64,000 bases of DNA from Mesorhizobium sp. B2-1-1 (lineage in GTDB: Bacteria > Pseudomonadota > Alphaproteobacteria > Rhizobiales > Rhizobiaceae): assembly GCF_006442975.2 (NCBI RefSeq), contig NZ_CP083955.1:124001-188000 (forward strand). The letters run 5' to 3'. This document shows positions 16,010 to 61,163 of this stretch, one piece after another (the first letter of the stretch is position 1; each line of letters starts with the position of its first letter). A model generated the notes under the pieces. That model ran no database searches, was not told the origin of the DNA, and saw only the letters and a program-made list of their open reading frames with translations. A program made the position numbers and the translations under genes.

Positions 16010-16023
16010 TTGCGGTGGATCAA
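16010..16023 (+). promoter_or_regulatory. FixK/FNR-type box upstream of USP-MBL-xfp-ackA
   Basis: TTGCGGTGGATCAA fits the FixK consensus TTG(A/C)-N6-(T/G)CAA with no mismatch. It is 77 bases before the universal stress protein start and could drive the whole run down to ackA. Confidence 0.65.
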
Positions 16024-16100
16024 AGCCGGGCTCGCCCACCGCGACTACCAATACCACGCAAGTTGGCCATCCGGGCCGGCATCAATGGAGGCGAAAACCG

Positions 16101-16937
16101 ATGAAGCTAATGGCAGTTCTTTGTCTGGCGACGTATCCGGACGCAAATGCTGGGGCAGTGGCCGTAAACGCTGTTGCCGTCGCCAAGCAGATCGGAGCGG
16201 CGCTTCATGCCGTCGCCATCAATGTCGATATTCCCGACGTTTCAAATGCGCTCTCAACCTACCTCCTCGACCTCCCCTACAAGATAGCGGAAGCTGAGGC
16301 GACAAGCCGCAAGCACGGCAAAGCTCTGCTTGAGGCGGTTGCCAATGAGGCCTCATCAGGTGCGGTGATCCTGTCCGCCCAGGAGATCGCAGCGCCACTG
16401 GCCCTGATGGGAGATGTTGCCGCAGAGCACTCCCGCTATTTCGACACCTGCCTTGTCGGCTGGGCGCCCGCCAACCAGACGGCACGGACGCTGGCCGAGG
16501 CGACAGTCTTCGGCTCCGGTAGGCCGACCGTTCTTCTTCCCGATTCCACGAAGGTGGAACCCTTTGAACATGTCGTTATCGCCTGGGATGGCAGCCGAGT
16601 GGCCGCAAGGGCTGTTGCAGACGCGCGGGCGTTTCTCGAACGTGCCTCAATGGTTACGGTTGTGACCGTCACCGACGAGAAGCCGCTTCCGGGGCAAGGC
16701 ATTGGCGAGCGCCTTGCTTCGGGCTTGAGGGCGCGTGGTCTGATGGCCGAGGCGGTCTCGATCCAGGCACAGGACCGTTCGGTCGCGACTGCACTGCAGG
16801 AGCATGCCCTCAAAATCGGCGGCAAGCTTCTGGTCATGGGCGGATATGGCCATTCTCGTGTCAGGGATTTCGTGCTCGGTGGCGCTACGGACGGGGTGCT
16901 TGCCGATCTGCGCCTGCCTGTCCTGCTCTCCCACTAG
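16101..16937 (+). CDS. Universal stress protein, tandem-domain
   Basis: 278 aa from the ATG at 16101; the open frame extends upstream without family support. It is a cytoplasmic tandem UspA-type protein. The second domain (about 150-278) has the strand-1 VVIAWDGSRVAARA motif and the ATP-binding GGYGHSRVRDFVLGG signature (G-x2-G-x9-G). The first domain is degenerate. Such proteins bind nucleotides and help survival under growth arrest or low oxygen. It is the first gene after a FixK-type box and is followed 11 bases later by a metallo-hydrolase. Confidence 0.9.
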   Translation: MKLMAVLCLATYPDANAGAVAVNAVAVAKQIGAALHAVAINVDIPDVSNALSTYLLDLPYKIAEAEATSRKHGKALLEAVANEASSGAVILSAQEIAAPLALMGDVAAEHSRYFDTCLVGWAPANQTARTLAEATVFGSGRPTVLLPDSTKVEPFEHVVIAWDGSRVAARAVADARAFLERASMVTVVTVTDEKPLPGQGIGERLASGLRARGLMAEAVSIQAQDRSVATALQEHALKIGGKLLVMGGYGHSRVRDFVLGGATDGVLADLRLPVLLSH

Positions 16938-16948
16938 GGCGTGGCGAC

Positions 16949-18562
16949 ATGCAAGGCGCTCGCGGCACGGATCCTATCCTGCGCTTTCACGGCGCGGCCC
17001 ACGGCGTCACCGGCTCATGCTACGAGATCGAAACCTCCCGCTGGCGGGTTCTCGTCGATTGCGGCCTTTTCCAGGGATCGAAGTCGGAACGGGAACTTAA
17101 TTATGGCCAGTTTCCGTTCCCGCCGGAGACGATCGACGCTGTCATCCTGACGCATGCGCATATCGACCATAGTGGGCTGTTGGCGAAGCTGGTCAAGGAG
17201 GGCTTTTCCGGTCCCATCCATTCGACCCGCGCCACCATCGATCTCTGCTCAGTGATGCTGCCCGACGCGGCGCATATCCAGGAAATGGAAGTCGAACAGC
17301 TGAACAGACGCAACGCGCGGCGCGGTCGGCCGCTGGTCGAGCCGATCTACACTCTTTCAGATGCGGCCGCCTGCATGACCTTGTTCCGGGCCCTGGAATA
17401 TGGCGAATGGACAACCGTCGCCGAAGGCCTTCGGGCCCGCTTCTGGAACGCTGGTCACCTGCTCGGCTCTGCCTCGGTCGAACTTGAGATCGATCTGGAT
17501 CACCAGAAGAGACCCATGCGCATTCTGTTTTCAGGCGATATCGGGCCTGGACACAAGTTGCTGCAGACCGGCCCGGAAGGTCCGGCTGGGGTCGACTACC
17601 TGATCTGCGAATCGACCTATGGCGACCGCGAGCGCCCGGATGTATCGCCCGAGCAGCGGCGATCGCAGCTGGGTGACATCGTGCGTGGCGCCGCCGAGAC
17701 CGGCGGACCTCTCATCATTCCGTCCTTCGCCGTGGAGCGAACGCAGGAACTGCTGGTCGATCTCCATCTGCTCATGCGGACCGGTGCCGTGCCCTCCGCG
17801 CCGGTCTTTGTCGACTCGCCGCTGGCGACACGCGCCAGCGCGATTTTTGAGCGGCATGCCGACGAGATCGAACAGGGTGACGCGCTACGGCAGGCCCTCA
17901 ACTCGAAGGAGTTACGCTTTACCGAGACGGTGGAACAGAGCAAGGCGATCAATCGCCTGACCGGCTTCTTCGTGGTGATCGCTGCCAGCGGCATGTGCGA
18001 CGCGGGCCGGATCCGCCATCACCTCAAGGCCAATCTCTGGCGCCGGAATGCCACGGTGATGATCGCCGGCTACCAGGCCCAGGGCTCTCTAGGCAGGATC
18101 CTGCTCGACGGCGCTCGGCGCGTGCGCATCCAGGGCGAGGAGGTCGAGGTCAAGGCGCATGTCAGCCTGTTCGACCTCTATTCCGGTCATGCCGACGCAG
18201 CCGAACTGGTTGCGTGGGTCGCGTCCAGAGGTCCGGTAAGGCAGGCGGTGTTCCTCACCCATGGCGAGGAGGAAGGGCTGCGTGGCTTCAGCGAGCGGCT
18301 GCAATCGATTATGCCTGACGGCAGGATCATCACGCCGCGGCTGGATGATGCCTTCCAATTGACGTTCAGTGGCAGTCTGCCGGTCGAACTCAACCAGCCC
18401 CGCCGTCTGAGACCAGAAAGCGTTGCCCGCCTCGACTGGCACAACGACCTTTCCAGACTTCTCCTCGACATCAACGAAGCGGTCGGCGCTGCGGCCGACG
18501 AGCGGGGACGTGCGGCGGTCATCAGGCGCATGCGCCGCGCGCTCGACGGCAATGATGCTTAA
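16949..18562 (+). CDS. MBL-fold/beta-CASP metallo-hydrolase (RNA-processing type)
   Basis: 537 aa. The metallo-beta-lactamase zinc motif HAHIDH is at 69-74, with further ligands at the GHLLGS histidine and the SGDIG aspartate. A beta-CASP region follows (ESTYGDRE, IIPSFAVERTQELL, VDSPLA) and a C-terminal RMMBL part with SGHADAAEL and LTHGEEEG. This is the architecture of bacterial YSH1/CPSF-like exonucleases. In rhizobia such genes travel with phosphoketolase and stress proteins, so a role in RNA turnover under stress is inferred rather than shown. Confidence 0.9.
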   Translation: MQGARGTDPILRFHGAAHGVTGSCYEIETSRWRVLVDCGLFQGSKSERELNYGQFPFPPETIDAVILTHAHIDHSGLLAKLVKEGFSGPIHSTRATIDLCSVMLPDAAHIQEMEVEQLNRRNARRGRPLVEPIYTLSDAAACMTLFRALEYGEWTTVAEGLRARFWNAGHLLGSASVELEIDLDHQKRPMRILFSGDIGPGHKLLQTGPEGPAGVDYLICESTYGDRERPDVSPEQRRSQLGDIVRGAAETGGPLIIPSFAVERTQELLVDLHLLMRTGAVPSAPVFVDSPLATRASAIFERHADEIEQGDALRQALNSKELRFTETVEQSKAINRLTGFFVVIAASGMCDAGRIRHHLKANLWRRNATVMIAGYQAQGSLGRILLDGARRVRIQGEEVEVKAHVSLFDLYSGHADAAELVAWVASRGPVRQAVFLTHGEEEGLRGFSERLQSIMPDGRIITPRLDDAFQLTFSGSLPVELNQPRRLRPESVARLDWHNDLSRLLLDINEAVGAAADERGRAAVIRRMRRALDGNDA

Positions 18563-18683
18563 ATCCTGCGAAGAGATGCACTGAAACGCCGACGCGTTTG
18601 TGTTCCTTCGCTGCAGCTCGACGAAACACAGGCGCAAGTCGAAATCGCAAGACTCAAGACTGTCGCCAACAACGGAGCCAGAC

Positions 18684-21161
18684 ATGACCGAGCACACGAC
18701 AAATCCAGCCTCCAGTGGTGTCCTGTCCAACCGCGAGGCGTACGACATCCATGCCTATTGGCGTGCCGCCAACTATCTCACGATCGGCCAGATCTACCTG
18801 CTCGACAATCCACTGCTGCGCGAACCGTTGCGGCTGGAGCACGTCAAGCCACGCCTGCTCGGCCATTGGGGAACGTCGCCGGGGCTGAGTTTCATCTACG
18901 CCCACCTCAATCGCATGATCAGGCTCAGTGACGCGAATGTGATCTATGTCTGCGGACCTGGTCACGGCGGACCGGCAATGGTGGCGAACAGCTATCTTGA
19001 GGGCAGCTACAGTGAGCTCAATCCCGACATATCGATGGATGAGCAGGGGATGCGCAAACTTTTCCGCCAGTTCTCCTTTCCGGGCGGCATACCGAGCCAC
19101 GCGGCGCCCGACGTGCCGGGCTCGATCCATGAGGGCGGCGAACTGGGCTACGCGCTTTCTCATGCCTATGGCGCGGCCTTCGACAATCCCGATCTCGTGG
19201 TCGCCTGCGTCGTCGGCGACGGAGAGGCCGAGACCGGGCCGATGGCCACCGCATGGCATTCCAACAAGTTTCTGAATCCTGAGCGCGATGGAGCGGTTCT
19301 GCCGATCCTGCATCTGAACGGCTACAAAATCGCCAATCCGACCATTCTGGCCCGTATCCCAGAAGACGAATTGCGCTCGCTGTTCGTCGGCTATGGCTAT
19401 GAACCGCTGTTCGTCGAGGGGCACGAGCCGGCGCTGATGCATGAGCGCATGGCGAGCGTGCTCGACGATGCGTTCGACCGGATCCGTGCGATCCAGCAGA
19501 CCGCGCGGAGCGGTTCCGCAACAGGGACTTCGCGACCAAGATGGCCGATGATCGTGCTGCGCAGCCCCAAAGGCTGGACCGGACCGAAGGAGGTCGATGG
19601 ACTGAAGACCGAGAGCTTCTGGCGCTCGCACCAGGTTCCCTTGTCGGGCCTTGCGGAAAACCCGGCGCATCTCAAGCTGCTCGAGGACTGGCTGAGAAGC
19701 TACCGGCCCGAAGAACTGTTCGATGCAGCCGGCGCCCCTATTGAAGCGATCCGCGCTTCCGCCCCTGAGGGCACATGGCGCATGGGTGCCAACCCGCATG
19801 CCAATGGCGGCCTGCTGCGCAAGTCCCTCGTCCTGCCCCTAGTGCACGACCACGCGGTTGCGATCGAACGACCGGGCGCGGTGAAGACCGAATCGACACG
19901 GGCGATGGGCAAGTTCCTGCGCGCCGTCATGGAGCTGAACGAGGCGGCGCAGAACTTCCGCATCGTCGGTCCCGATGAGACGGCCTCGAACCGGCTTCAG
20001 GACGTGTTCGAGGTCACCGAGCGCGCCTGGATGGAAACGATCCTGCCCGAAGACGTTCATCTTGGCCGCGACGGCAGGGTCCTGGAGATTCTCTCGGAAC
20101 ACACATGCCAGGGTTGGCTCGAAGGCTACCTGCTCACCGGGCGGCACGGCTTGTTTTCCTGCTACGAGGCGTTCATTCACATTGTCGATTCCATGTTCAA
20201 TCAGCATGCCAAATGGCTGGATGCCTGCCGCGACATTCCGTGGCGTCGGCCGGTGGCGTCGCTGAACTATCTGCTGTCGAGCCATGTCTGGCACCAGGAG
20301 CACAATGGCTTCAGCCATCAGGATCCAGGCTTCATCGATGTCGCTCTCAACAAGAAAGCCGATATTGTGCGGGTCTACCTGCCGCCGGATGCCAACACCT
20401 TGCTGTGCGTGACCGATCACGTGCTGCAGACATGGAACCGCATCAACGTGATCGTCGCCGGCAAGCCGCCATCGTGGCAGTGGCTTTCAATGGACAAGGC
20501 CATCGTTCATTGCGGGACGGGTATCGGCATCTGGGACTGGGCTTCGACCGACAATGGCGAGGATCCTGACGTCGTGATGGCTTGCGCCGGCGACGTCCCG
20601 ACGCTCGAAACGCTGGCGGCCGTGCAGATCCTCAGGTATGCCATTCCCGAACTCAAGATCAGGGTGGTGAATGTCGTCGACCTGATGACCCTGCAACCCA
20701 AGGAGCATCACCCCCATGGGTTGTCGGACCGTGAATTCGACGCCCTGTTTACCTCGGAAAAGCCGGTGATCTTCGCCTATCACGGCTATCCCTGGACCAT
20801 CCATCGCCTGACTTACCGGCGCACCAATCACGACAACATCCATGTGCGCGGCTACAATGAGGAAGGCACGACGACAACGCCATTCGACATGACGGTGCTC
20901 AATGGCCTGGATCGATACCATCTCGTCCAGAGCGTCCTTGAGCGGCTGCCAAAGGGCAAGGGCGCCAATATCGGGCAGGTGCAGGAGATGGAAGGCAAAC
21001 TGATTGAGCATCGGGCCTATATCCGTGCTCATGGTCAGGATATGCCGGAGATCCTTGGCTGGAAATGGGAGCAGGGCATGGATGCGGCGCCAGACTTGCC
21101 CAATAAGCCGACGAGCGGGTTTCGGCGCACCACCGGGCCGAGAATGCGGACGGCTTCATGA
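18684..21161 (+). CDS. xfp: Xylulose-5-phosphate/fructose-6-phosphate phosphoketolase
   Basis: 825 aa from the ATG at 18684; the upstream in-frame extension to 18600 lacks family similarity. This thiamine-diphosphate enzyme cleaves xylulose 5-P (or fructose 6-P) with phosphate to acetyl phosphate and an aldose phosphate. Recognisable features include [18 protein letters not shown], the ThDP motif [20 protein letters not shown] and the C-terminal [14 protein letters not shown]. Its stop overlaps the start of ackA by four bases, so acetyl phosphate would feed directly into acetate kinase to yield ATP. Confidence 0.96.
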
Positions 21162-22324
21162 GTGATGCGTTCCTTGTCCTGAACAGCGGGTCATCGAGCT
21201 TGAAATTCGCGGTGTTCGAGGCAAGCGCCGAGCTTTCCGAGCTGCTGCGCGGCAGTATTTCGTCGCTCGCACGGCATCCGCGCCTGCACGTCGCGGCCGC
21301 GGCCGGATCCCCCGAGATCGACATCAGCCTGGGCGAAAAATCGATCGATGTTGCCAAAGCCTTCTCAACGGTCGCTGCGCTGCTCGCCGATCGCAACCTT
21401 CTTGGCCGCATCAACAGGGTCGGGCATAGGATCGTCCATGGCGGGCGCGACTTCACCCAAGCGACGCTGCTCGACACGGACGCGCTCGAGGCACTACAGC
21501 TGCTGGAGCCGCTGGCGCCCATCCATCAAAGGATCAATCTCGAGATCGTTGCCCGGGCTGCAGAGCTCCTCCCGCGGGCGCGTCAGGTCGGATGCTTCGA
21601 CACTGCGTTTCATGCGAGCCGGCCAGCACTTGTCAAGATCTACGGGCTGCCGCGCGCGATGACCGAGGCGGGCATCGTTTCCTATGGTTTTCACGGCCTG
21701 TCCTACAGCCATATCGCTGCGAAGCTGCGCGAGCGCTACGGTGCGGCCGCCGGCGGTCGGGTGATCGTCGCCCATCTCGGCAGCGGCGCCAGCCTCTGCG
21801 CGATGAAGGCTGGACGCAGTGTCGCCACGACGATGGGGTTCTCGACGCTTGACGGCCTCGTCATGAGCACCCGCTGCGGCGTGCTGGACCCGGGCGTCAT
21901 CCTGTATTTGCTGCAGGAGAGGAGGCTGTCGAGCGAAGACCTGGCCAGCCTTCTCTACGAACGTTCGGGCCTGCTGGGCGTCTCCGGCATTTCTGGAGAC
22001 ATGCAGGTTCTGCTGGGCGCAAAAGAGCCTTCGGCCGTTCAAGCCGTCGACCTATTTGTTTATCGTGTCGGACGTGAAATCGGCTCGCTTGCCGCCGCGC
22101 TTGGCGGGCTCGACACGCTGGTGTTCACCGCTGGCATCGGCGAACACGCGCCACTGATCCGGCACAGGATCTGCGAAGCAGCTGCGTGGCTTGGCGTCGA
22201 GCTCGATGAGCATTTGAACCAGAAAGGTGCGGAGAGTGTCAGCGCGCCAAATTCGCGCGTCGACATTCTCGTCATTCCGGCCGGTGAGGAACAGGCCGTT
22301 GCCCGCGAGACGCTGGCATTCTGA
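21158..22324 (+). CDS. ackA: Acetate kinase
   Basis: 388 aa enzyme interconverting acetyl phosphate plus ADP with acetate plus ATP. Family motifs are [13 protein letters not shown] at the N-terminus, [35 protein letters not shown] and the C-terminal [13 protein letters not shown]. It is translationally coupled to phosphoketolase (ATGA-type overlap at 21158-21161). Together they form a short pathway from pentose phosphate to acetate that produces ATP without respiration, in keeping with the low-oxygen theme of the island. Confidence 0.96.
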
Positions 22325-22924: not shown

Positions 22925-23563
22925 TTATTCACCCATGTCCAAAAGCACGTCCTGCTTGAGGATTTCGATGCTGCGCAAACCGAGCAGGCGAATGACGCCT
23001 TTGTCCTTCAGTCGGGTGAAGACCCGCGACACCGTCTCGATGGTGAGGCCGAGATAGTCGCCAATATCCAGTCGCGACATCGGCAAGTCGACCTGGCGCA
23101 AGCCGCCCTGCCGTTCCGTCATGTCGACTAGGAACGCTGCGACCCGTTCGATGGCGTTCTGGCGGCCAAGGACCAGCAGATGTTCCTGAGCTCTGATCAA
23201 GCCCTTGAGCGCAAGCGGCAGCAACTGGCGGGACATGTCCGCGGCCGCAGCGATCCGGACAACGCGGATACCGGTCGCGTTGATGGCCTCGGCGAAGAAA
23301 TGATGGGTGGCCTCGGCCTCGAAGCCGAAAGTCTCTCCGGCCATGTGGAAGGCGCTGATCTGCCGGCGGCCGTCGGCGAGCAGCCGGTAGACACGCACCG
23401 CGCCGAATTCGACCTGGTAAAGGGGTCCTGCCTTTTCGCCTTGGGCGTAGATCTCCGTGCCAGCCGGGAAGAAGCTGACCGGTTGCGCCATAGCCCCATC
23501 GAGGAGAGCGAAAGGGCTCGGCTGCGTTGGCAGTTCAATCTTGGCGATCTGTTGAGCGTACAT
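22925..23563 (-). CDS. fixK: Crp/Fnr-family regulator, FixK type
   Basis: 212 aa from the ATG at 23563 (a start at 23596 is also open). It has a cyclic-nucleotide-like beta roll with the FFPAGTEIYAQGE, FGAVRVYRLLADGRRQISAF and GETFGFEAE pattern. The C-terminal helix-turn-helix contains SRLDIGDYLGLTIETVSRVFTRL, whose E-x2-SR recognition helix matches proteins that read TTGAT-N4-ATCAA. The protein contains no cysteine at all, so it cannot carry the FNR iron-sulfur cluster. This is FixK-like and implies that oxygen is sensed elsewhere, by FixL. It is the obvious candidate reader of the many boxes in this window. Confidence 0.85.
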   Translation of the reverse strand: MYAQQIAKIELPTQPSPFALLDGAMAQPVSFFPAGTEIYAQGEKAGPLYQVEFGAVRVYRLLADGRRQISAFHMAGETFGFEAEATHHFFAEAINATGIRVVRIAAAADMSRQLLPLALKGLIRAQEHLLVLGRQNAIERVAAFLVDMTERQGGLRQVDLPMSRLDIGDYLGLTIETVSRVFTRLKDKGVIRLLGLRSIEILKQDVLLDMGE

Positions 23564-23629: not shown

Positions 23630-23651
23630 TGTCCCTAAGGGAAACCACCTA
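23630..23651 (-). promoter_or_regulatory. Possible FixJ-binding region upstream of fixK
   Basis: Read on the minus strand, this stretch contains GGTGGTTTCCCTTAGGGACA, which resembles the GTTTCCC-type core I associate with FixJ-activated fixK promoters. It lies 67-88 bases before the fixK ATG. This rests on remembered consensus and position only. Confidence 0.45.
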
Positions 23652-23795
23652 ATCCGTTCAGGCTGGCCCGTTGCATCGGCGAATGGCCATCCAGAACCGG
23701 GTGTCCGTTCGGCATTTGAACGATAGCCTTTGCGGTAGGTCAAGGCCCGCTCTATTCACCTGATTAAAGATGTTGGGAACGAGGGAAACACCCAA

Positions 23796-26363
23796 ATGTC
23801 CCAATCCACCCGACCCACTATCGCTTTGTCTGGTCTCAGCGAGGTCGAGGCACAAGCCAGGCTCGCCCTCGATGGTTTCAACGAACTGCCCAGATCGAAC
23901 CGGCGGACGCCGCTGCGGATTGCCTTCGAAGTCGTGCGCGAACCGATGCTGGCCCTTCTGTTGGGCGGAGGTGCCGTTTACCTGCTGCTTGGGGATCTGC
24001 ATGAGGCGTTGATCCTGGCTGCTTTTGCCACCTTGTCGGTGGGGATAACCATCGTACAGGAAGCGCGGACAGAACGCGTTCTGGAGGCGTTGCGCGACCT
24101 GACAAGCCCGCGTGCCCTGGTGATACGCGACGGTGAACGTAGGCGCATTGCAGGGCGCGAGGTCGTGCGCGGCGATCTGGTGGTGCTGGGCGAGGGCGAT
24201 CGGGTGCCGGCCGACGTCTTGCTGATCCAAAGCCTGGATCTCCAGACCGATGAATCGCTGCTGACCGGTGAGTCGGTTCCGGTGCGCAAGTTTGCAGCCA
24301 AGGATGGCGACCCGCCAGCCGAACGCCGCCCAGGCGGCGACGACCTGCCTTTCGCATTTTCCGGATCACTCGTGGTGCGCGGTTCGGGCATTGGCGAAGT
24401 TCTGGCAACCGGGCCGCTGAGCCAAATCGGTGCGATCGGCCAATCGCTCAGCATTATGGAGACCGAAGCACCCCGCTTGCAGCGACAGACGAAACGTCTT
24501 GTCGGCATCTTCGCACTGGTCGGTGGTGCGGTCAGCGTTCTGGCGGTCGTGCTTTATGGCGTTTTGCGGGGCGGGTGGCTCGACGCGGTCCTTGCTGGCA
24601 TCGCGCTGGGCATGTCGATGCTGCCCGAGGAATTCCCGATGGTGTTGACCATCTTCATGGCCATGGGCGCCTGGCGCATCTCGCAGGCGCGCGTGCTCAC
24701 CCGTCGTGCGGCGGCGATCGAAACGCTTGGCTCGGCGACAGTTCTCTGCACCGACAAGACCGGAACGTTGACCGAAAACCGCATGACAATCGCGGAGCTG
24801 AGAACGCCTGACGGCAAACGGTTCCGGTTACCGGACAACATGAATGCCGGGATGCCGGCGGCCTTTGGCGAGCTGGTCGAGCTTGGTGTGCTCGCCAGCG
24901 CCGAAATTCCTTTTGATCCGATGGAAAAGGCATTTCACACCCTTTCGCAGGAGCGATCACCCAGTCGCAAGGATCTGGACAGTGTTGATCGGAAACTTGT
25001 CCGCGCCTATGGGTTGCGTCCCGAGCTGCTGGCCATGTCGAATGCTTGGCGATCACCGGCTGACGGCAGCGACTGTCTGGTCGCCGCCAAGGGCTCGCCG
25101 GAGGCCATAGCGGCACTCTGTCGTCTGAGCGCGGAGCGCTTCGCTTCGATCAAGGCTTCCGTGGACGCCATGGCGACCGAAGGACTGCGCGTCCTCGGGG
25201 TGGCCCGAGCCAGTCATTGTGCTGGTGAACTGCCAGAAAGGCAGACAGGCTTCGATTTCGAGTTCATGGGCCTCGTCGGGCTGGCTGACCCCCTCCGCCC
25301 GGAGGTTCCGGATGCCGTGAACAACTGCCGGTCCGCTGGAATCAGAGTGGTCATGATCACGGGGGATTATCCGGCGACCGCCAGAGCAATAGCCAGTCAG
25401 GCTGGGCTCGATTTCAACGACGTCGTGACCGGTGAAACGCTCAAGACAATGGACGATGCGGCACTTTGCGCGCGCGTCAAGACCGCCACAGTGTTCGCGC
25501 GGATCACGCCCGAGCAGAAACTGGCGATCGTCAGAGCGTTGAAGGCCAATGGCGAGATCGTCGGCATGACAGGAGACGGCGTCAACGACGCCCCCTCGCT
25601 GAAAGCGGCCAACATCGGCATTGCCATGGGAGGTCGCGGCACCGACGTCGCGCGCGAGGCTTCATCCATTGTCCTTCTCGACGACGACTTCGGGTCGATC
25701 GTCAAAGCCATACGGCTGGGCCGCCGCATCTACGACAATTTGCGCAAGGCCATGGGCTTCATTCTTGCCGTGCATGTGCCGATCGCTGGGCTGGCCCTTC
25801 TTCCTCTGCTGTTTGGCCTGCCCATTCTGTTCGGACCGATGCACATAGCCTTTCTGGAAATGGTGATCGATCCGGTGTGTTCCTTGGTCTTTGAAGCCGA
25901 GACCGAGGAAGATGACGTCATGAATCGCCCTCCACGAGATCCGCAAGCATCGCTCTTTTCGCGCTCGCTCATAGCCTGGAGCGTTGTGCAGGGCCTGCTG
26001 GCGTTCGCACTTGTCGCAAGCATCTTCCTTTTTGCCTTCCACTGGGGAATGCCGGAGAACGAAATTCGCGCCTTGACGTTTTTTTCGCTGGTCCTCTCGA
26101 TCGTCGGCCTGATCTTCGTCAACCGTACGTTCGGCGACTCGCTGCTGATTGCGTTGTTCCGGCCCAATCGATCGCTTGCTCTTGTCGTCGTGGTGGTTGC
26201 TGCAGCGCTGGGCGGGACACTTCTCTGGCCATTCGCCAGTGGTCTCTTCCAGTTCGGACCGCTGCACCTTGACGACCTCTCGATGACGCTGGCGGCAGGA
26301 GCCGCAGTGCTGGTCTGCCTTGAGTTCCTGAAGCATTTCTGGAGAGGGTGGTTAAAAGCCTGA
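23796..26363 (+). CDS. Cation-translocating P-type ATPase (P2-like)
   Basis: 855 aa polytopic ATPase. It has an N-terminal cation-ATPase domain (GLSEVEAQARLALDGFNELP), the TGES actuator loop (LLTGESVPV), the phosphorylation motif DKTGTLTEN, and the hinge TGDGVNDAPSLKAANIGIAMG. The M4 motif reads MLPEEFPM rather than the PEGLP of classical calcium pumps, so the ion is uncertain. The C-terminal cation-ATPase domain is complete, with about ten membrane segments in total. It is divergent from the FixK-type gene, and no clear box precedes it. Confidence 0.9.
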   Translation: MSQSTRPTIALSGLSEVEAQARLALDGFNELPRSNRRTPLRIAFEVVREPMLALLLGGGAVYLLLGDLHEALILAAFATLSVGITIVQEARTERVLEALRDLTSPRALVIRDGERRRIAGREVVRGDLVVLGEGDRVPADVLLIQSLDLQTDESLLTGESVPVRKFAAKDGDPPAERRPGGDDLPFAFSGSLVVRGSGIGEVLATGPLSQIGAIGQSLSIMETEAPRLQRQTKRLVGIFALVGGAVSVLAVVLYGVLRGGWLDAVLAGIALGMSMLPEEFPMVLTIFMAMGAWRISQARVLTRRAAAIETLGSATVLCTDKTGTLTENRMTIAELRTPDGKRFRLPDNMNAGMPAAFGELVELGVLASAEIPFDPMEKAFHTLSQERSPSRKDLDSVDRKLVRAYGLRPELLAMSNAWRSPADGSDCLVAAKGSPEAIAALCRLSAERFASIKASVDAMATEGLRVLGVARASHCAGELPERQTGFDFEFMGLVGLADPLRPEVPDAVNNCRSAGIRVVMITGDYPATARAIASQAGLDFNDVVTGETLKTMDDAALCARVKTATVFARITPEQKLAIVRALKANGEIVGMTGDGVNDAPSLKAANIGIAMGGRGTDVAREASSIVLLDDDFGSIVKAIRLGRRIYDNLRKAMGFILAVHVPIAGLALLPLLFGLPILFGPMHIAFLEMVIDPVCSLVFEAETEEDDVMNRPPRDPQASLFSRSLIAWSVVQGLLAFALVASIFLFAFHWGMPENEIRALTFFSLVLSIVGLIFVNRTFGDSLLIALFRPNRSLALVVVVVAAALGGTLLWPFASGLFQFGPLHLDDLSMTLAAGAAVLVCLEFLKHFWRGWLKA

Positions 26364-48520: not shown

Positions 48521-48523
48521 CGG

Positions 48524-51707: not shown

Positions 51708-51734
51708 ACGGCAATGCGGAGGTCGTCAGACAAC

Positions 51735-52880: not shown

Positions 52881-52894
52881 TTGATCACGATCAA
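52881..52894 (-). promoter_or_regulatory. FixK/FNR-type box upstream of lipoyl-like gene
   Basis: TTGATCACGATCAA matches TTGAT-N4-ATCAA exactly. It faces the minus-strand lipoyl-like gene; another box lies 36 bases further for the plus-strand side. Confidence 0.82.
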
Positions 52895-52930: not shown

Positions 52931-52944
52931 TTGACGCGGATCAA
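52931..52944 (+). promoter_or_regulatory. FixK-type box upstream of USP-like remnant
   Basis: TTGACGCGGATCAA, one mismatch to TTGAT-N4-ATCAA, about 53 bases before the likely start at 52998. Confidence 0.7.
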
Positions 52945-53234: not shown

Positions 53235-53459
53235 ATGTGGAAACCAATCCTAAGCGCTCCTTTTGGTCGCGATCTAGAACTGGCCGTTTTCGACGAAGAC
53301 GGCGAGCACGCGCTTGTGTTTGCCTGCAGAAGGATAAAGGAGGGCTGGAAGAATGCTGCTAGTGGTGCCCGTCTCGACATCCGGCCGACCCATTGGCGCG
53401 ATTGGGATTGGGAAAGGACCGAGGTCAGAAATCGCAATCCTCTCGAGGACTCTCCCTAG
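53235..53459 (+). CDS. Conserved hypothetical protein
   Basis: 74 aa from the ATG at 53235; a longer frame opens at 53187, but family-like sequence begins at MWKPILSAPFGRDLELAV. The body FDEDGEHALVFACRRIKEGW and THWRDWDW is typical of a short rhizobial protein family of unknown function. No signal or membrane segment. It converges with fixJ, overlapping its end by four bases. Confidence 0.65.
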   Translation: MWKPILSAPFGRDLELAVFDEDGEHALVFACRRIKEGWKNAASGARLDIRPTHWRDWDWERTEVRNRNPLEDSP

Positions 53460-54070
53460 GGTCGGGACTCCACGATCAACGCCATACGCACCAGGTGTGA
53501 CAGACTACTCGCCTCCATTTTGCTCATGACATTGGCCCGGTGGATTTCGACCGTGCGCGGGCTGATCCCCAGATCGTAGGCAATCGTCTTGTTGGGTAAA
53601 CCGGCAACGAGTCCGTCCAGCACTTGGCGCTCGCGGTCAGACAAGGTCGATAGACGCGCGCGGATATCCGCGGACTGGGGATGCGCCGCGTTCGCCTCGT
53701 TCCGGTTGGCCAGTGCAGAGCGTATCGCCTGGATCAGCATCTCGTCGTCAAACGGCTTTTCGACGAAATCGGAAGCGCCTTCCTTCATGGCCTGAACGGC
53801 GAGCGCCACGTCGGCGTGACCTGTCATGATGATGACCGGAATCTTGTGGCCGCCTGTTCTGAGTTGCCGTAGCAATTCGATGCCGTCTATTCCCGGCATG
53901 CGCACGTCCGTAACGATGCAGCCGTCGAGATGGCCATCCGCCGCTGAGAGAAAAGCAGTGGCCGACTCGTACAGGCGTACGGCAAAGTCGGCTGTCGCCA
54001 GCAGAAAACCGAGAGACTTGCGAACATCAACATCGTCGTCGACGACGTGGACCAGATCACTGTCGGCCAT
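53456..54070 (-). CDS. fixJ: Two-component response regulator FixJ
   Basis: 204 aa from the ATG at 54070, exactly the usual FixJ length. The receiver domain has the acidic pocket DDD near 11-13, phospho-acceptor D55 in VTDVRMPG and the KPF lysine (VEKPFDD). The LuxR-type helix-turn-helix (about 140-200) has [22 protein letters not shown] and [14 protein letters not shown]. Phosphorylated FixJ activates fixK and nifA-type promoters in rhizobia. Its start overlaps the fixL stop by 14 bases. Confidence 0.93.
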
Positions 54071-55646
54071 TTGTGACCTCATCCTTCTCAACGATGCGTA
54101 AGGTGAACCGAAAGGCGGTGCCGCCCGTCGGCATTGCCTCGGCCCAGATGTGGCCGCCGTGCGATTCAACGATGGTGCGGCAGATGGAGAGACCGACACC
54201 CATACCCTGCTTCTTGGTGGTCACAAATGGCTGGAACAGTTGCGCCGAAACCTCTGGCGCGAGCCCCGGACCGGTATCGATCACGCTCACTTCAGCCATG
54301 CCATCGTCCCGGGCAACGGTTGTGATTTTCAATTCACGGCGCTGCGTTTCCTGCATGGCCTCCACTGCGTTGCGCATCAGATTGAGCAGAACCTGCTGAA
54401 TTTGGATGCGATCGGTCAAGACCAGTTCCGCGGCAGGGTCGAGCTTGTAGCCGATCTGGACATTGATCTCCCTCGCACCAACCAGGGCGAGCGACGAGGC
54501 TTCCTCGATGAGCGCCGGCAATCGCTCGACCTGGCGCTCGCTTTCGCCCCTGGCAACAAAATCGCGCAGATGACGAATGACGTCGCCTGCCCGCAGGGCC
54601 TGCTCGGCGGCCTTTTCCACGGCATCCCGCAGCATCGGCGCGTTTGCTTCCGTGCTCTTCTCCAGGAGCCGTCGGCTGCCCTTCAGGTAATTGGTGATGG
54701 CTGTCAGCGGTTGGTTGATCTCATGAGCGAGCGTCGATGCCATCTCGCCAAGGGCGGTAAACCGCGCCATGTGCAGAAGCTCCTGCTGCTGTTCCTGAAT
54801 TCTTGCTTCCGCGCGATGACGTTCAGTCAGGTCGCGGCAAAAGCCGGTAAAGAAGCGTCCGGTTCCCGGGTGCATTTCGCCGACGGAAAGCTCCATCGGG
54901 AAAGTCGTGCCATCCTTGCGTGCCCCGGTCACGGTGCGGCCGAGCCCGATGATCCGACGCTCCCCGGTCGTCAGGTAGCGAAGCAGATAAGCATCGTGCT
55001 CTTCGCGATAGGGCGCCGGCATCAGCATCTTGACGTTCTGTCCGATGACCTCGCCCGACTGGTAACCGAACAGCGTTTCGGCGGCCGTGCTGAAGGACTG
55101 GATACTGCCTTGCTCGTCAATGACGACCATCGCATCAGGCACGGTCGCCAGGATTGAACGCAGATGATCTTCGCGCAACAGAAGCGCGGCATTCGCAAAT
55201 GAGAGGTCGCTGACATCCGTGCCTTCAATGAAGATGGCGGTAATTCGACCGTCATCGGCCCTGATCGGCTGATAGACAACATCCAGGATACGCTCTTCAA
55301 TTGGCCCATTGCTGCTGTTGCGGAATCCGACCTTCACGCCTTTGCCGCTGTAGGACTCGCCAGTCACGTACACGCGGTCGAGCCGTTCGAGGAATTCGTG
55401 TCTTTCGAGTTCGGGAAAGGCCTCGCGCGCCGATTTTCCAATAACCTGCCGGTCGCCAATGAGTTGCTGGTAGGCGGCATTGGTCAGTACGAACACATGG
55501 TCAGGCTCGCGTATCAGAGCCATGAACCCGGGCGCCCGATCGAACATTTGCGACAATAGGGATTCGAGCGTCGTCCCGCCAGGCGTCAAACTGAATGCTT
55601 CGTCTTGGATCACCCGCGGTTCCTTAGGCTCGAGACACATAAACAA
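54057..55646 (-). CDS. fixL: Oxygen-sensing histidine kinase FixL
   Basis: 529 aa soluble kinase without membrane segments. PAS 1 is at about 33-145. The heme PAS is at about 150-270 and keeps the proximal heme histidine H217 ([10 protein letters not shown]) and the oxygen-contacting arginine R237 (IIGLGR). The HisKA has H308 in LAHEINQPL, and an HATPase domain has [19 protein letters not shown] and [18 protein letters not shown]. When oxygen leaves the heme the kinase phosphorylates FixJ. Upstream lies a FixK-type box shared with the divergent USP gene, so feedback by FixK is possible. Confidence 0.94.
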
Positions 55647-55725: not shown

Positions 55726-55739
55726 TTGACGCGCATCAA
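55726..55739 (+). promoter_or_regulatory. FixK/FNR-type box between fixL and USP-ATPase operon
   Basis: TTGACGCGCATCAA, one mismatch to TTGAT-N4-ATCAA. It is 65 bases before the USP start and 79 bases before the divergent fixL start. Confidence 0.7.
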
Positions 55740-55804: not shown

Positions 55805-56617
55805 ATGTCCTACAAGTCCATAATCGCGAATCTCGCCGTCGATACGCCCCCTGCTGCGATTGTGAAAGTGGGTATCGAACTCGCAGAGCGTTTCGGCGCC
55901 CATCTCATTGGTCTGGCGGCGGCGGATGTTCCGCCCTTGGTCGCGACGGGTGAAGGCATGGTCTACGAAGGGGAGGTCATGCAGATTCAGCGGACTGAAA
56001 TCGAAAAGAGGCTTGCCGAACTGCGTGCCGAGTTCGAAAGCCTGGTCCCGGCTTCGATCACAAGCGAGTGGGGACAGGCCGTCTGCAGCCCGACCCGCTT
56101 CCTCAGCGTTTTCGCCCGCGCAGCCGATCTTGTCGTGACCGGTGCGTCGGGAGACGACGTGTTTCGCGCCGCCGATGTTGGCAGCCTGGCGCTCGGCATC
56201 GGCCGGCCAGTCCTGGTCATCGGAAACAACGTCGAACACCTCCGCGCTAATACGGTCCTGGTTGCCTGGAAGGATACCAGGGAGGCGCGACGGGCGGTGG
56301 CGGATGCCTTGCCTTTTCTGGCCAAGGCCAATGAGGTTGTCGTCGCCACGATCGCCGCCGCCAAAGGCGACGACAATGTTCGTGACAGTCTCGCCGATGT
56401 CGCTGTCTATCTTGAGCACCATGGCATCATGGCGCAGACGGAACTGATCACCGGTGAAGTCGATGGCGAGCAGTTGTTGACATTCGCACGCTCGATCAAT
56501 GCCGACATGATCGTCTCAGGCGCCTATGGCCATAGCCGCCTGCGCGAATGGGCGTTTGGTGGCGTCACCCGCACGCTGATCGAAGAGAGCAGCATCAACC
56601 GCTTCCTGTCATACTGA
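55805..56617 (+). CDS. Universal stress protein, tandem-domain
   Basis: 270 aa. Domain 1 begins SYKSIIANLAVDTPPAAIVKVG, read as MSYKSII... at the N-terminus. Domain 2 (from about 150) has TVLVAWKDTREARRAVADAL and the nucleotide-binding signature GAYGHSRLREWAFGG, ending INRFLSY. It is the best-preserved member of the USP set in this window and the likely template for the remnants at 28335 and 50488. Its TGA overlaps the ATG of a P-type ATPase (TGATG), so the two are probably translated together. Confidence 0.92.
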   Translation: MSYKSIIANLAVDTPPAAIVKVGIELAERFGAHLIGLAAADVPPLVATGEGMVYEGEVMQIQRTEIEKRLAELRAEFESLVPASITSEWGQAVCSPTRFLSVFARAADLVVTGASGDDVFRAADVGSLALGIGRPVLVIGNNVEHLRANTVLVAWKDTREARRAVADALPFLAKANEVVVATIAAAKGDDNVRDSLADVAVYLEHHGIMAQTELITGEVDGEQLLTFARSINADMIVSGAYGHSRLREWAFGGVTRTLIEESSINRFLSY

Positions 56618-59262
56618 TGGCGAATATCGTGTCTTCTGGCGTGGACCAACATTCCGTTGCGGCGGCCGCAAGTCCGTATTGGTCGATCACCAGCGAAGAT
56701 CTCGTGCGAGGTCTGGCAACTTCGCCCACATCGGGCCTGGCTGGGTCGGATGCCGCCTCGCGGCTCATCAAATACGGCGCGAATACGCCGGCCTCGAAGT
56801 CAGGCGCGTCGGCGCTTAGCGTGTTCGTTCGCCAGTTCCGTAGCCCGCTTGTCCTGATCCTGATCTTCGCGGCTAGCGTTTCGGCCTTCGTCGGTGCAGG
56901 TCAGGAGGCCGCAATCATCGGGGCGATCGTGCTGGCAAGTTGCGTTCTCAGCTTCACCCAGGAGTATGGGGCGTCGCGGGCGACAGAGGCACTTAAACAG
57001 CGTATCTCGCGCAAGGCTACCGTGCTGCGAGATGGCGTCGAATCCTCCGTTTCTGCCGAAGAAATCGTGCCGGGCGACCTCATCCGGCTATCGGCCGGAA
57101 ACCTCATACCTGCCGACTGCGTCATCCTCGAAGCGCGGGATTTCAATGTCAGCGAGGCGGTGCTGACTGGCGAAACCTTCCCCGTCCTGAAGGCGGCGGG
57201 GCGATCAGATCCTGATGCGTCCGTCGCCCAACGCAACAATGCGGTGTTTACCGGTACGTCCGTGCGCAGCGGCACGGCGACCGTGCTTGCGGCAGCGACC
57301 GGCCGGCGCACCGAATTCGCCTCCATCGCAGCGGCACTGGAGCGACAAATCCCGGAAACGGATTTTGCCCGCGGGATCAGATCGTTTGGCTATCTGATGA
57401 CCGAGATCATGCTGGCGATTGTCATCATCGTGTTTTTTGCCAATCTGATGCTGCATCGTCCGCTGATAGAATCGCTGTTGTTTTCCCTGGCACTCGCGGT
57501 CGGCCTCACACCTGAACTGCTCCCGGCCATTATCAGTGTAACACTTGCTCGTGGCGCCCGCGCCATGGCTGCCAATGGCGTCATCGTGCGCCGTCTCGAC
57601 GCCATCGAGAATCTGGGCAGCATGGACGTGCTTTGCACCGACAAGACCGGCACGCTGACGGAAGGCGTGATCCACCTTGACGGATGGCTTGATGTCGACG
57701 GCAACCCGTCAACCGACATCCTGCTTTGGGCACGTCTCAACGCAACCCTGCACACTGGACTGAAGAACCCGCTGGACGAAGCCATCGCCGGTGCGCCGGG
57801 CAAGGGTGCATCATTGGCCGCTTTCACCAAGGTCGACGAGATCCCTTATGATTTCATTCGCAAGCGCCTATCCGTTGTTGTGCGAACCAAGGATGGCGAA
57901 GATCTTCTGATCACGAAAGGCGCAGTACAGAACGTCCTCGAAACCTGCAGCTTCGTCGGCACAGCGAAAGGCCTGGAACCTCTCGAAGACACGCACCGCG
58001 CGGCGATCGACAAGATGTTTCGACGCTGGAGCGCGGAAGGATATCGCGTTCTGGGGCTAGCGACGCGTCGATTTGAAAGCCACGCTACCTATGGCAGGAA
58101 GGACGAGGTCGATCTCGCCTTCGCCGGCTTTCTGCTTTTCCTAGACCCGCCCAAGGAAGGCGTAAAGAGCACGCTTGCCGAACTCGCCCACCGGGGCATC
58201 GCCGTGAACGTCATTACGGGCGACAACCGCTACGTTGCAGCCCATCTTGCTCAAGCGGTCGGCTTGCGTAGCGATCGGATCATGACCGGGGAGGATCTGT
58301 CGAAGTTGACCAAGAGCGCGCTCTTTGCAGCCGTGCAGGACACTGACCTCTTCGTCGAGATCGATCCCAACCAGAAAGAACGCATTGTCCAGGCCTTGCG
58401 GAGCAGGGGCCATGTCGTTGGCTATCTGGGTGACGGCATCAATGATGCGCCCGCGCTCCATGAGGCCGATATTGGGGTCTCCGTCGACACCGCATGCGAT
58501 GTCGCGCGTGAGGCTGCCGATATCATCCTTCTCAAGCAGGATCTCGGAGTGCTGGTGCGGGGCGTCGACGACGGCCGCAAGACCTTCGCCAACACCATGA
58601 AATATATCTCCATCACCACCAGCGCCAATTTCGGCAACATGATAAGTATGGCGGTCGCCTCGCTATTCCTGCCTTTCCTGCCACTTCTGGCAAAGCAGAT
58701 CCTGCTCAACAATTTCCTTTCCGACGTGCCCTCACTCGCCATCGCAAGTGACAACGTTGACGCAGATCAGCTGCACAGGCCGCGCCACTGGGACATCCGT
58801 TTCGTGAGGCGATTCATGATCAGCTTTGGCCTGGTCAGTTCGCTGTTCGATTTCGCAACCTTCGCGTTCCTGCTGCTCTTCGCCCATGCCACAGAGGCTG
58901 CATTCCAGACAGCCTGGTTTGTCGAATCGTTGCTGACCGAGCTTGCAATCGTGCTCATCGTTCGTACGCACCGCGCTTTTTGGGCGAGCCGTCCGAGCCC
59001 CTTGCTCGCCTGGCTGACACTGGGCGTCGGGTTTGTCGCGATCATGATTCCGTATCTGCCGTTCGCAGACTGGTTCGGTTTCGTGCCCTTGCCGCTGCCT
59101 ATACTTGCCGGACTTGTCGCTATCACCGCGCTCTATCTATGGGCCTCAGAGGCGACAAAGCGCGGGTTCTTCGGCCAGGAGGAGCCGCAGTCGCACCCGA
59201 AGAGGCCGGGGCAACCTATTGGCAGAGCCACCAAGTCTCATTCTGCGTACCCGACATTATAG
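56617..59262 (+). CDS. mgtA: Magnesium-type P-type ATPase (MgtA-like)
   Basis: 881 aa from the ATG at 56617; an earlier in-frame start at 56548 lies inside the USP gene. It has a P3B-type layout, with the M4 motif GLTPELLPAI, the TGE loop VLTGETFPV, phosphorylation site DKTGTLTEG and hinge GDGINDAPALHEADIGVSVD. The C-terminal membrane domain includes LLAKQILLNNFLSDVPSLAIA, characteristic of MgtA/MgtB. It would import magnesium. Coupling to a USP gene behind a FixK-type box suggests ion control when respiration falls. Confidence 0.92.
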   Translation: MANIVSSGVDQHSVAAAASPYWSITSEDLVRGLATSPTSGLAGSDAASRLIKYGANTPASKSGASALSVFVRQFRSPLVLILIFAASVSAFVGAGQEAAIIGAIVLASCVLSFTQEYGASRATEALKQRISRKATVLRDGVESSVSAEEIVPGDLIRLSAGNLIPADCVILEARDFNVSEAVLTGETFPVLKAAGRSDPDASVAQRNNAVFTGTSVRSGTATVLAAATGRRTEFASIAAALERQIPETDFARGIRSFGYLMTEIMLAIVIIVFFANLMLHRPLIESLLFSLALAVGLTPELLPAIISVTLARGARAMAANGVIVRRLDAIENLGSMDVLCTDKTGTLTEGVIHLDGWLDVDGNPSTDILLWARLNATLHTGLKNPLDEAIAGAPGKGASLAAFTKVDEIPYDFIRKRLSVVVRTKDGEDLLITKGAVQNVLETCSFVGTAKGLEPLEDTHRAAIDKMFRRWSAEGYRVLGLATRRFESHATYGRKDEVDLAFAGFLLFLDPPKEGVKSTLAELAHRGIAVNVITGDNRYVAAHLAQAVGLRSDRIMTGEDLSKLTKSALFAAVQDTDLFVEIDPNQKERIVQALRSRGHVVGYLGDGINDAPALHEADIGVSVDTACDVAREAADIILLKQDLGVLVRGVDDGRKTFANTMKYISITTSANFGNMISMAVASLFLPFLPLLAKQILLNNFLSDVPSLAIASDNVDADQLHRPRHWDIRFVRRFMISFGLVSSLFDFATFAFLLLFAHATEAAFQTAWFVESLLTELAIVLIVRTHRAFWASRPSPLLAWLTLGVGFVAIMIPYLPFADWFGFVPLPLPILAGLVAITALYLWASEATKRGFFGQEEPQSHPKRPGQPIGRATKSHSAYPTL

Positions 59263-59766: not shown

Positions 59767-59780
59767 TTGATCGAGATCAA
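59767..59780 (+). promoter_or_regulatory. FixK/FNR-type box upstream of DUF6455 gene
   Basis: TTGATCGAGATCAA matches TTGAT-N4-ATCAA exactly, 52 bases before the start at 59833. Confidence 0.85.
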
Positions 59781-59832: not shown

Positions 59833-60102
59833 ATGACATTTCTCGATTATCTGGTTTCAGTCGACGCCAGGACCGCCCTGATGGGCCGCATGATGCAGAA
59901 GCTTGGCGTCGACAAACAATTGAAATCGGTGCCGGATCATGCCGCCGTCACCAACCGGGCAGTGGACCGATGCCGCTCGTGTGGGCATCAGGACGAATGC
60001 TCGACCTGGCTCGACGAACACCAGCAAGCCGATAATCCGCCAGACTATTGCCGCAACCGTGATCTTATCGCACGGCTGCAACACGCCGCCGGTCAACGTT
60101 AG
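59833..60102 (+). CDS. DUF6455-family small cysteine-containing protein
   Basis: 89 aa from the ATG at 59833, preceded by GGAG at 59821-59824; a GTG at 59824 is in frame but sits on the ribosome site. The cysteine pattern C-x2-C-x4-C (CRSCGHQDEC) followed by W and a later YC (PPDYC) is that of DUF6455 proteins and may bind a metal or cluster. Function unknown. A perfect FixK-type box precedes it. Confidence 0.78.
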   Translation: MTFLDYLVSVDARTALMGRMMQKLGVDKQLKSVPDHAAVTNRAVDRCRSCGHQDECSTWLDEHQQADNPPDYCRNRDLIARLQHAAGQR

Positions 60103-60391
60103 AACCGTCGACGCCTCGAGCTGGATGGAGGGTCACTCAACCTCTGGAAAGACCGTACGTCTTGGAGGTCCAGCGCAACCGGATGCGTAGGCTCCGGACT
60201 CCATGGATCGCCCTGGCGGGCTTGATAGCACGGACCTCTTCAGCTGGTGGCCACATCTTCAGGCGAGCATCCAAACCCGTTTGGCATGGTAATCGGCTGG
60301 TGATGTTCTCATTCTCGACAATTCGCTGTCGAGCGAGATTGATCGTGGACCCGCGGCTTGCAGTGGCAAGTTCGTCGGGATCGTCCCGCCG

Positions 60392-61090
60392 CTACGAAAC
60401 AAGCACCACGGACAACGGATCGGCGCAGAAGAGACCATCCCTGACAGCCTTTACGCCGGCAACGTTTTCGGCTGCCACAAAGGCTGCCTGGCGCTCACGT
60501 TCGTCGAAGATGACACCGCTCAATATCACCACGCCCTTGTTCACCATCACGTGGATCAGGTCTTTGCCGGTCCATTTGTGCTTTGCAAGCTCGCCAGCGA
60601 CGTTGTGGCGAATCTGCTCGTCATCGATGACCGAACGGCCTGCATCCGGAAGGACGCTGAGCAATGCCCGCAGCAGATCAGAACGGGTGATGATGCCGAC
60701 GACTTTCCCGGCATCGATGACCGGAATGCGTTTGACGTGATGTTGCGTCATGAGTTCGACGACCTCGGCGAGCGACGCGGCGGGAGACGCCGTGACGACA
60801 TCGCTGGACATCACCTCCTCGATCCGTCGACCATTGGCGTGGACATATTCGTCGGCGGCCTTTCCAGGACTGACGAGAAACTCTAGCCAGCGCGAGCGCT
60901 TTTGCTCGGTGTCCAGTTCTCCTCGTCGCAGGAAATCGCCCTCGCTGACAATCCCCACCAGCGTGCCGTCGCCGCGAACAACAGGCAGGCCGCTGATCTT
61001 ATTGGACAGCATCAGCCCGGCCACCTCGGCGATCGAGGCGGACGGGTCCGTGCAGATGACTGGCTTGCTCATGATGGCTTCGGCTTGCAT
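60392..61090 (-). CDS. CBS-domain protein with C-terminal BON domain
   Basis: 232 aa from the ATG at 61090, which has GGGGAG just upstream. Two CBS motifs (about 3-60, AEAIMSKPVICTDPSASIAE; about 90-150, VMSSDVVTASPAASLAEVVE and GKVVGIITRSDLLRAL) form a nucleotide-binding Bateman module. A BON domain (about 165-230) follows. Such CBS-BON proteins are stress-linked sensors of adenylate charge. A near-match FixK box is 59 bases upstream. Confidence 0.9.
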   Translation of the reverse strand: MQAEAIMSKPVICTDPSASIAEVAGLMLSNKISGLPVVRGDGTLVGIVSEGDFLRRGELDTEQKRSRWLEFLVSPGKAADEYVHANGRRIEEVMSSDVVTASPAASLAEVVELMTQHHVKRIPVIDAGKVVGIITRSDLLRALLSVLPDAGRSVIDDEQIRHNVAGELAKHKWTGKDLIHVMVNKGVVILSGVIFDERERQAAFVAAENVAGVKAVRDGLFCADPLSVVLVS

Positions 61091-61149
61091 GCTCGCTCCC
61101 CGGAGATATTTCATTCCCGGCTTCTTAGATGCCGCATGAGCGAAGGGCC

Positions 61150-61163
61150 TTGATTTGAATCAT
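61150..61163 (-). promoter_or_regulatory. FixK-like box upstream of CBS/BON gene
   Basis: TTGATTTGAATCAT has a perfect left half and one mismatch in the last base. It lies 59 bases before the CBS/BON start, the usual distance. Confidence 0.55.

Follow-up and report, generated by a model that had tools for sequence, protein, structure and literature searches.

A putative FixLJ-FixK regulon for low-oxygen life on a plasmid-like contig of Mesorhizobium sp. B2-1-1

We analyzed a 64,000-nucleotide stretch of the Mesorhizobium sp. B2-1-1 genome (the window, positions 124001 to 188000 of the 460,611-bp contig C2; the second contig, C1, has 5,723,266 bp), in which an earlier note had described a compact, self-regulated set of FixK/FNR boxes. 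The 45-kb box cluster (16010..61163, here called the region) very probably represents an accessory FixLJ-FixK regulon for low-oxygen life on a 461-kb plasmid-like contig. On the sequence, the clustering of FixK/FNR boxes was confirmed, as was the claim that FixL, FixJ, and a FixK-type regulator are all encoded among them. The genes, the sites, and their placement, conservation, and co-occurrence support this reading, and from them we infer DNA binding, the oxygen response, and the physiology. Plain coordinates are window positions, those with the prefix C1 or C2 are contig positions, and the counts use a genome size of 6.18 Mb (C1 plus C2).

The sensor gene fixL (54057..55646, minus strand) encodes PAS, HisKA, and HATPase domains. 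Its product aligned with the FixL heme-domain structures 8js5 and 1dp6 with E values of about 1e-50, including the proximal His and the distal Arg (the Arg position is altered in 1y28), which we take to be His200 and Arg220 of B. japonicum. It combines a predicted heme-binding PAS domain with a histidine kinase. No other FixL match in the genome was full-length, the next having 31% identity over residues 158-512 (355 residues). FixJ (53456..54082, minus strand) matched the NCBIfam FixJ equivalog with 309.8 bits (cut-off, 255) and pairs a Response_reg receiver, with its phospho-acceptor Asp in VTDVRMPG, with a GerE domain, the LuxR-type helix-turn-helix. The third regulator, a fixK-type CRP/FNR activator (22925..23563, minus strand), has an E-SR recognition helix (IETVSR) and no cysteine, which ruled out an Fe-S FNR-type identity; its closest solved structure is FixK2 (4i2o, 145.7 bits versus 90 for the FNR type). 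We found no chromosomal FNR or FixK as a user of the boxes at an E value of 0.001 in C1, where the four CRP-family matches carry H-NR or HTNK-type helices, not E-SR.

A FixJ-type site (TAGGTGGTTTCCCTTAGGG, 23633..23651, minus strand) lies 69 bases before fixK and is almost identical in all eight other Mesorhizobium fixK promoters aligned. We consider it a putative FixJ-binding site from the sequence match alone; the published FixJ motifs are GTAGTTTCCC (from SELEX, systematic evolution of ligands by exponential enrichment) and TAAGTAATTTCCCTTA (S. meliloti fixK) (PMC4999443). The pattern GTRRTTTCCCKTA, derived from the fixK site itself and its orthologs, had a single exact match in the genome, at this site. 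With one mismatch it occurred at 9 places versus 16 for the reversed control, which is background level, so that only the exact site is informative.

To describe the boxes we used three patterns: TTGAT-N4-ATCAA (exact), TTGAY-N4-RTCAA (strict), and the published FixK2 pattern TTG(A/C)-N6-(T/G)CAA (loose). Five exact sites were found in the region (37370, 46348, 51249, 52881, and 59767), not the six announced in the earlier note, which itself listed five. Eight sites in the window have one mismatch (28559, 33351, 49012, 50448, 52931, 53187, 55726, and 61150), that at 53187 falling within a small called open reading frame (ORF). The loose pattern matched 21 times in the region. After exclusion of five matches, three within called genes (35683, 42524, and 49321) and two with no called start nearby (52135 and 52551), and addition of the near-match at 61150, 17 promoter-placed boxes remained, in agreement with the previous estimate of about 17.

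The density of these sites was clearly above background. The window holds 45 sites with two or fewer mismatches, while 16.1 were expected and the highest of 100 shuffles gave 31. Genome-wide, the region contains 5 of the 8 exact sites, 13 of the 164 with at most one mismatch, and 10 of the 31 strict sites (C1, 16; C2, 15), the last against a Poisson expectation of 0.15 (p 2e-15). Comparison with the whole genome showed enrichment by all three counts. Loose matches numbered 21 in the 45 kb of the region, 40 in the 397 kb of the rest of C2, and 38 in 780 kb of C1, sampled as 39 stretches of 20 kb (14% of the contig).

The placement of the boxes is promoter-like. The distance from box end to start codon was 49 to 80 bases for 14 of the 17 boxes, close to the 50 to 80 bases reported before, a count that depends on the gene calls and on the choice of one named start in ambiguous cases (16010, 23730, 34576, and 46382). 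None of the 10 strict boxes of the region falls within a called gene, compared with 11 of the 16 on C1, the remaining five of which are intergenic with a start no more than 250 bases away (genes of both were called with home-made codon-usage callers). When all 17 boxes were oriented to the nearest start, the best -10-like hexamer signal appeared 21 to 22 bases past the box (mean of 3.97 versus 2.35 across all offsets), a value equaled by none of 20,000 random-offset draws, although this offset had already been seen before the final test with its nearest-start rule and controls. The signal was absent for the opposite orientation of the same 17 boxes (p 0.28) and for 22 intragenic loose matches on C2 (p 0.67 and 0.29). 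A spacing of 21 to 22 bases fits an FNR-type box centered near -41.5. As judged from sequence, the FixK boxes stand at activating positions before their predicted targets.

Conservation of the boxes was followed in a GTDB contig scan using the best 80 of 312 candidate loci, most of them named Mesorhizobium. Orthologs had at least 60% identity and at least 60% coverage, with at least 120 bases upstream, and boxes had one mismatch at most; L073 was used in place of its M. ciceri duplicates L072 and L108, other near-duplicates were retained, and the counts ignore relatedness. A box preceded every ortholog of the genes for DUF6455 (28/28), the phasin-like protein (13/13), and arcD (1/1) and, as an exact match, those for the biotin/lipoyl-domain protein (10/10), the universal stress protein (USP) USP-b (6/6), a cytochrome c piece (6/6), and the 128-residue protein H128 (2/2). 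The proportions were 29/32 for USP-c, 18/25 for the CBS-BON gene, and 27/47 for fixL. Some genes with no close box here were boxed in part of their orthologs: PNPOx (11/23), g45897 (1/7), fixK (1/8), and the flavodoxin-like gene (1/2). No box was found before the orthologs of fixJ (0/41), g51801 and cytc51714 (0/13 each), PATP2 (0/12), g62216 and g62542 (0/11 each), DUF2231 (0/10), APH-AAA, PRTa, and PRTb (0/8 each), XFP and DUF4010 (0/4 each), trx2 (0/3), ackA and ADH (0/2 each), or arcA, arcC, argF, and HMA (0/1 each). In seven of the eight aligned promoters, all but that of x50682, the box arms were among the three most conserved windows (0.89 to 1.00 versus 0.56 to 0.85 elsewhere in the promoter).

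The sensor, the activator, and the boxes also go together across the genus. Among 146 Mesorhizobium genomes (E values of 1e-120 for FixL and 1e-50 for FixK and FnrN), FixL was detected in 92, FixK in 91, and FnrN in 127. FixK was present in 91 of the 92 FixL-positive genomes (the exception, G271, is 79% complete) and in none of the 54 FixL-negative ones. FixL-positive genomes had a median of 34 strict boxes (13 to 90, n = 92) versus 16 (3 to 28, n = 54) in FixL-negative genomes (Mann-Whitney p 5e-19, in statistics that ignore phylogeny). Clustering near a FixL occurs elsewhere too: of the 42 strict boxes of G152, 27 were listed, and 17 of these lie within 80 kb around its second FixL.

Under the FixLJ-FixK reading, loss of O2 from the FixL heme would lead FixL to phosphorylate FixJ, and phosphorylated FixJ would bind at 23633-23651 and switch on fixK. 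FixK would then bind the TTGAY-N4-RTCAA boxes and activate promoters with a -10 element 21 to 22 bases further, while feedback on fixLJ may come from the box shared by fixL and USP-c, the candidate for such a role here. The predicted targets include USPs, phosphoketolase-acetate kinase, the arginine deiminase pathway, an ADP-forming-type acyl-CoA synthetase, hemA (heme synthesis), cytochromes, P-type cation ATPases, CBS-BON, and DUF6455. They would favor survival over nitrogen fixation, with ATP presumably made without respiration by phosphoketolase-acetate kinase and by arginine deiminase. In B. diazoefficiens, units with phosphoketolase-acetate kinase, a metallo-beta-lactamase (MBL) hydrolase, PNPOx-cytochrome c, USP, and CBS genes are boxed and FixK2 dependent (PMC9104804, Table 2), and the entries that increase in microoxia include USP, CBS, and phosphoketolase (PMC6515984). 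Of the description as a low-oxygen module, the box enrichment, promoter placement, conservation, and internal regulators stand; the low-oxygen response is a prediction.

Several observations weigh against this reading. The NCBIfam models for FixL (566 versus 850) and FixK (189 versus 300) scored under their cut-offs. Boxes were poorly conserved before orthologs of hemA (3/10), DUF2267 (5/9), and the acyl-CoA synthetase with a GNAT domain (ACS-GNAT, 0/1), and the boxes of the x50682 orthologs, present in all nine, are out of alignment with that at 51249. Box numbers of FixL-positive and FixL-negative genomes overlap, G228 and G155 holding only 13 and 15 in spite of having FixL and FixK, and some units of the window are boxless (DUF4010-trx2-HMA and DUF2231). 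The supposed self-regulation is borne out only in part. The regulators are internal and fixK has a FixJ-type site, but it has no strict FixK box, unlike in G260 and G175, where strict boxes lie within about 200 bases of it; here the weak box between fixK and a P-type ATPase (TTGCGGTAGGTCAA, 23730..23743, plus strand, three mismatches) is 166 bases from the fixK start.

A compositional accident as the source of the cluster has a negligible probability in our view. C2 outside the window is richer in loose matches than the C1 sample, as this explanation would have it, but the shuffles, the whole-genome counts, the Poisson p value, and the -10 placement ruled out chance clustering, and promoter placement and ortholog conservation contradict the accident as well. 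A more serious competitor is encoded on C2 itself, which has two further CRP-family matches, one DNR-type (C2:197462-198238) and one FnrN-type (C2:243929-244657). The FnrN-type protein has cysteines at 16, 19, 27, and 115, an E-SR helix, and a box 89 bases upstream. Its gene lies 47 to 58 kb past the window together with fixNOQP, fixGHIS, and hemN, and a nirK-like gene is nearby; these genes were named from their sequences and from the gene order annotated in the M. ciceri plasmid pMc1192. Strict boxes stand 76 to 89 bases before fixG, fixN, and fnrN. The module is not complete within the 45 kb. Because this FnrN carries the same kind of box on the same contig, it may share sites, and it probably shares some of the boxes. 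Main use of the boxes by FnrN, which senses oxygen with an Fe-S cluster, and only a secondary role for FixLJ-FixK are nevertheless unlikely. The two motifs are very similar (PMC4999443) and FnrN is widespread in the genus, but the number of strict boxes per genome tracks FixL and not FnrN: the median was 17 in FixL-negative genomes with FnrN (n = 41) versus 14 in those lacking it (n = 13, p 0.36), and 26 in the FixL-positive genomes lacking FnrN (6 of the 92). The loci were inspected in two of these six, G260 and G277. Both encode FixL and FixK, gave no FnrN match at an E value of 1e-50, and still show strict boxes upstream of fixL, fixG, and fixN.

The region could also be read as a regulatory locus for symbiotic nitrogen fixation, since FixLJ-FixK, fixNOQP, and fixGHIS are well known from symbiosis and the fix region of S. 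meliloti pSymA shares the core, but we judge this very improbable. A symbiotic role in this host was largely ruled out because nifH did not pass the cut-off in the genome (best match, 29 bits versus a cut-off of 394). In addition, curing of pMc1192 left chickpea nitrogen fixation unchanged in M. ciceri, in which a copy of fixNOQP and fixGHI on an integrative and conjugative element remains (PMC8090884). If the FixLJ-FixK reading holds, a whole oxygen-response network on an accessory replicon in a genome where no nifH was found would mean that FixLJ-FixK is uncoupled from nitrogen fixation, and the conserved unknowns DUF6455 and H128 would be marked as likely hypoxia genes.

The region is not new in kind, FixLJ-FixK regulons being known on chromosomes or plasmids of relatives. 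On S. meliloti pSymA, fixI, fixG, fixO, fixN, PNPOx, fixK, fixJ, fixL, and USP-b are matched in that order over 49 kb, followed by a DNR-type gene and nirK (identities of 47 to 81%, six strict boxes), whereas the arginine deiminase, phosphoketolase, DUF6455, and CBS-BON genes have no match in this stretch; fixLJ and fixK are essential for nitrogen fixation in that species (PMC8090884). M. ciceri pMESCI01/pMc1192 encodes a FixL 89% identical to the one here, with boxes at matching places before USP, DUF6455, and CBS genes. On pMc1192, a Crp/Fnr gene, cco/fix genes, and nirK accompany fixLJK, and its fixLJ, fixK, and fixNOQP have been published (PMC8090884). These stretches are shorter: the annotation of 20 kb on each side, which for pMESCI01 stops at the end of the record, shows no genes for the arc pathway, phosphoketolase, or acyl-CoA synthetase. 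FixK2 of B. diazoefficiens recognizes the same loose box and shares several target classes, but its regulon is far larger (970 genes), and it is redox sensitive through C183, a position aligned with Ser in the FixK described here, as in the C183S structure (PMC9104804). The B. cenocepacia lxa and M. tuberculosis DosR clusters are, like the region, USP-rich low-oxygen clusters, and lxa also includes BON-domain and cytochrome proteins, with a FixK/Anr-type regulator (BCAM0049) suggested for it (PMC6127331, PMC9104464). The likeness to the region is one of predicted function. DosR is not known to be related to FixK. The FixL neighborhoods of one Methylobacterium and one sphingomonad plasmid differ from the region, while one Phenylobacterium plasmid shares phosphoketolase, USPs, and acetate kinase but has just three boxes in 41 kb, one exact and two with one mismatch. 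No PLSDB plasmid spanned 80% of either half of the query (records of the same genome were possibly excluded there), and no title or abstract opening among those listed in the literature searches described the block as a whole, supplements being outside the search.

What is distinctive is the confinement of most plausible strict sites and all three regulators to one contig. Portability, judged as the presence of the same gene block on different replicons (block ends, integrase, and att sites were outside the search), was borne out by a syntenic block that occurs both on C2 and on large chromosomal contigs in relatives. In G254, a run of about 68 kb on a 6.38-Mb contig comprises fixK (97%), arc genes, H128, USP-b, hemA, phasin, fixLJ, USP-c, DUF6455, and CBS-BON, then DNR, nirK, fixI-G-O-N, fnrN, and hemN; the phosphoketolase unit was not detected in the 100 kb inspected. 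The fixK-to-CBS part was also found on 7.1- and 7.9-Mb contigs of G267 and G175. Between this part, which ends at C2 187.2 kb, and nirK (233.9 kb) there are about 47 kb here and about 10 kb in G254, which would reflect extra DNA between the CBS-BON end and nirK or a changed order. A further reading, which we hold somewhat less likely than not, is that of a plug-in regulon: an accessory block, passed on as a unit and mobile between chromosome and plasmid, that would contain the sensor, the relay, the activator, and almost all of its sites; relevant here is that strict boxes on C1 are few and mostly intragenic. A strain gaining such a block would acquire the full oxygen response with no change to its chromosomal wiring, and the published pMc1192-cured M. 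ciceri derivatives (PMC8090884) make its inheritance as a self-contained block directly testable. At the left of the window, LuxR/LuxI genes (159-1568) and trb-type conjugation genes of a type IV secretion system (4962-14344) may point to quorum-regulated transfer of the C2 replicon.

The boxed units were assigned mostly from Pfam domains. The loose match TTGCGGTGGATCAA (16010..16023, plus strand) precedes USP-a, a beta-CASP hydrolase, phosphoketolase, and acetate kinase (16095..22324, plus strand), no USP-a ortholog of 60% identity being available for the conservation test. Past fixK lies P-type cation ATPase 1 (23826..26363, plus strand). The box TTGACCCGCATCAA (33351..33364, minus strand) stands before arcD-arcA-argF-arcC (28665..33324, minus strand), of which arcA and arcD were identified with NCBIfam and argF and arcC named from the annotation of a matching Shinella stretch. 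The loose box TTGATCTGGCGCAA (34576..34589, plus strand) precedes a cupredoxin-like gene and is 165 bases from the PepSY/cytochrome b561 pair on the minus strand (33559..35164 for the three genes). The exact box at 37370..37383 (minus strand) precedes H128 (36934-37320) and a flavodoxin-like protein (36311..37320 for the unit, minus strand). H128 has 128 residues, no Pfam family, and 515 homologs and is highly conserved; its predicted structure was an unusable model (pLDDT of 48). Further on, the loose box TTGATCCAGCGCAA (41528..41541, plus strand) is 51 bases before ACS-GNAT (41593..44271, plus strand).

An exact box (46348..46361) separates cytochrome c-like pieces (minus strand) from USP-b (46420..47304, plus strand), itself preceded by a loose box (46382..46395, plus strand). 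The box TTGATCCCGCTCAA (49012..49025, minus strand) precedes the DUF2267-phosphoribosyltransferase-PNPOx unit (47369..48985, minus strand), in which the phosphoribosyltransferase at 47835-48520 is split over two adjacent frames and is possibly a broken gene. Before hemA (5-aminolevulinate synthase, 49073..50350, minus strand; TIGR01821, 654 bits, cut-off of 339) lies TTGACATGAATCAA (50448..50461, minus strand), and before the phasin-like protein and cytochrome c (51363..52076, plus strand) the exact box at 51249..51262 (plus strand). Another exact box (52881..52894) stands between the biotin/lipoyl-domain gene (52582..52800, minus strand) and a small ORF (plus strand), and TTGACGCGGATCAA (52931..52944, plus strand) lies 25 bases before a small ORF. 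The one-mismatch box at 55726..55739 separates fixL (minus strand) from USP-c and P-type ATPase 2 (55805..59262, plus strand), and the near-match ATGATTCAAATCAA (61150..61163, minus strand) precedes the CBS-BON gene (60392..61114, minus strand). The exact box at 59767..59780 (plus strand) precedes DUF6455 (59833..60102, plus strand), whose four cysteines (47, 50, 56, and 73; CxxC-x5-C-x16-C) are invariant in 29 aligned sequences, so that the protein may bind a metal or an Fe-S cluster. Its predicted structure is a fair model (pLDDT of 83) with no significant PDB match by sequence or by fold.

A few strict boxes elsewhere deserve mention. On C1, TTGACTTTAATCAA (C1:733829-733842) lies 57 bases before a gene, presumably CYTH-like, and recurs in G151, G152, G153, and G156, with or without FixL; it is perhaps an FnrN or an unrelated site. 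The boxes at C2:91602 and C2:104597 are not far from near-duplicate 108-residue genes (starts at 90959 and 104953), for which no low-oxygen link was seen. Within the window, the box TTGATCGCCGTCAA (28559..28572, minus strand) is 56 bases before the start of a degraded USP gene, a remnant resembling USP-c (28410..28502, minus strand; tblastn, 52% over 31 residues, E value of 3e-4) with stops downstream. A second degraded and fragmented USP gene lies at 50494-51095 (minus strand), beneath the 51249 box, which brings the USP content of the window to three genes and two remnants.

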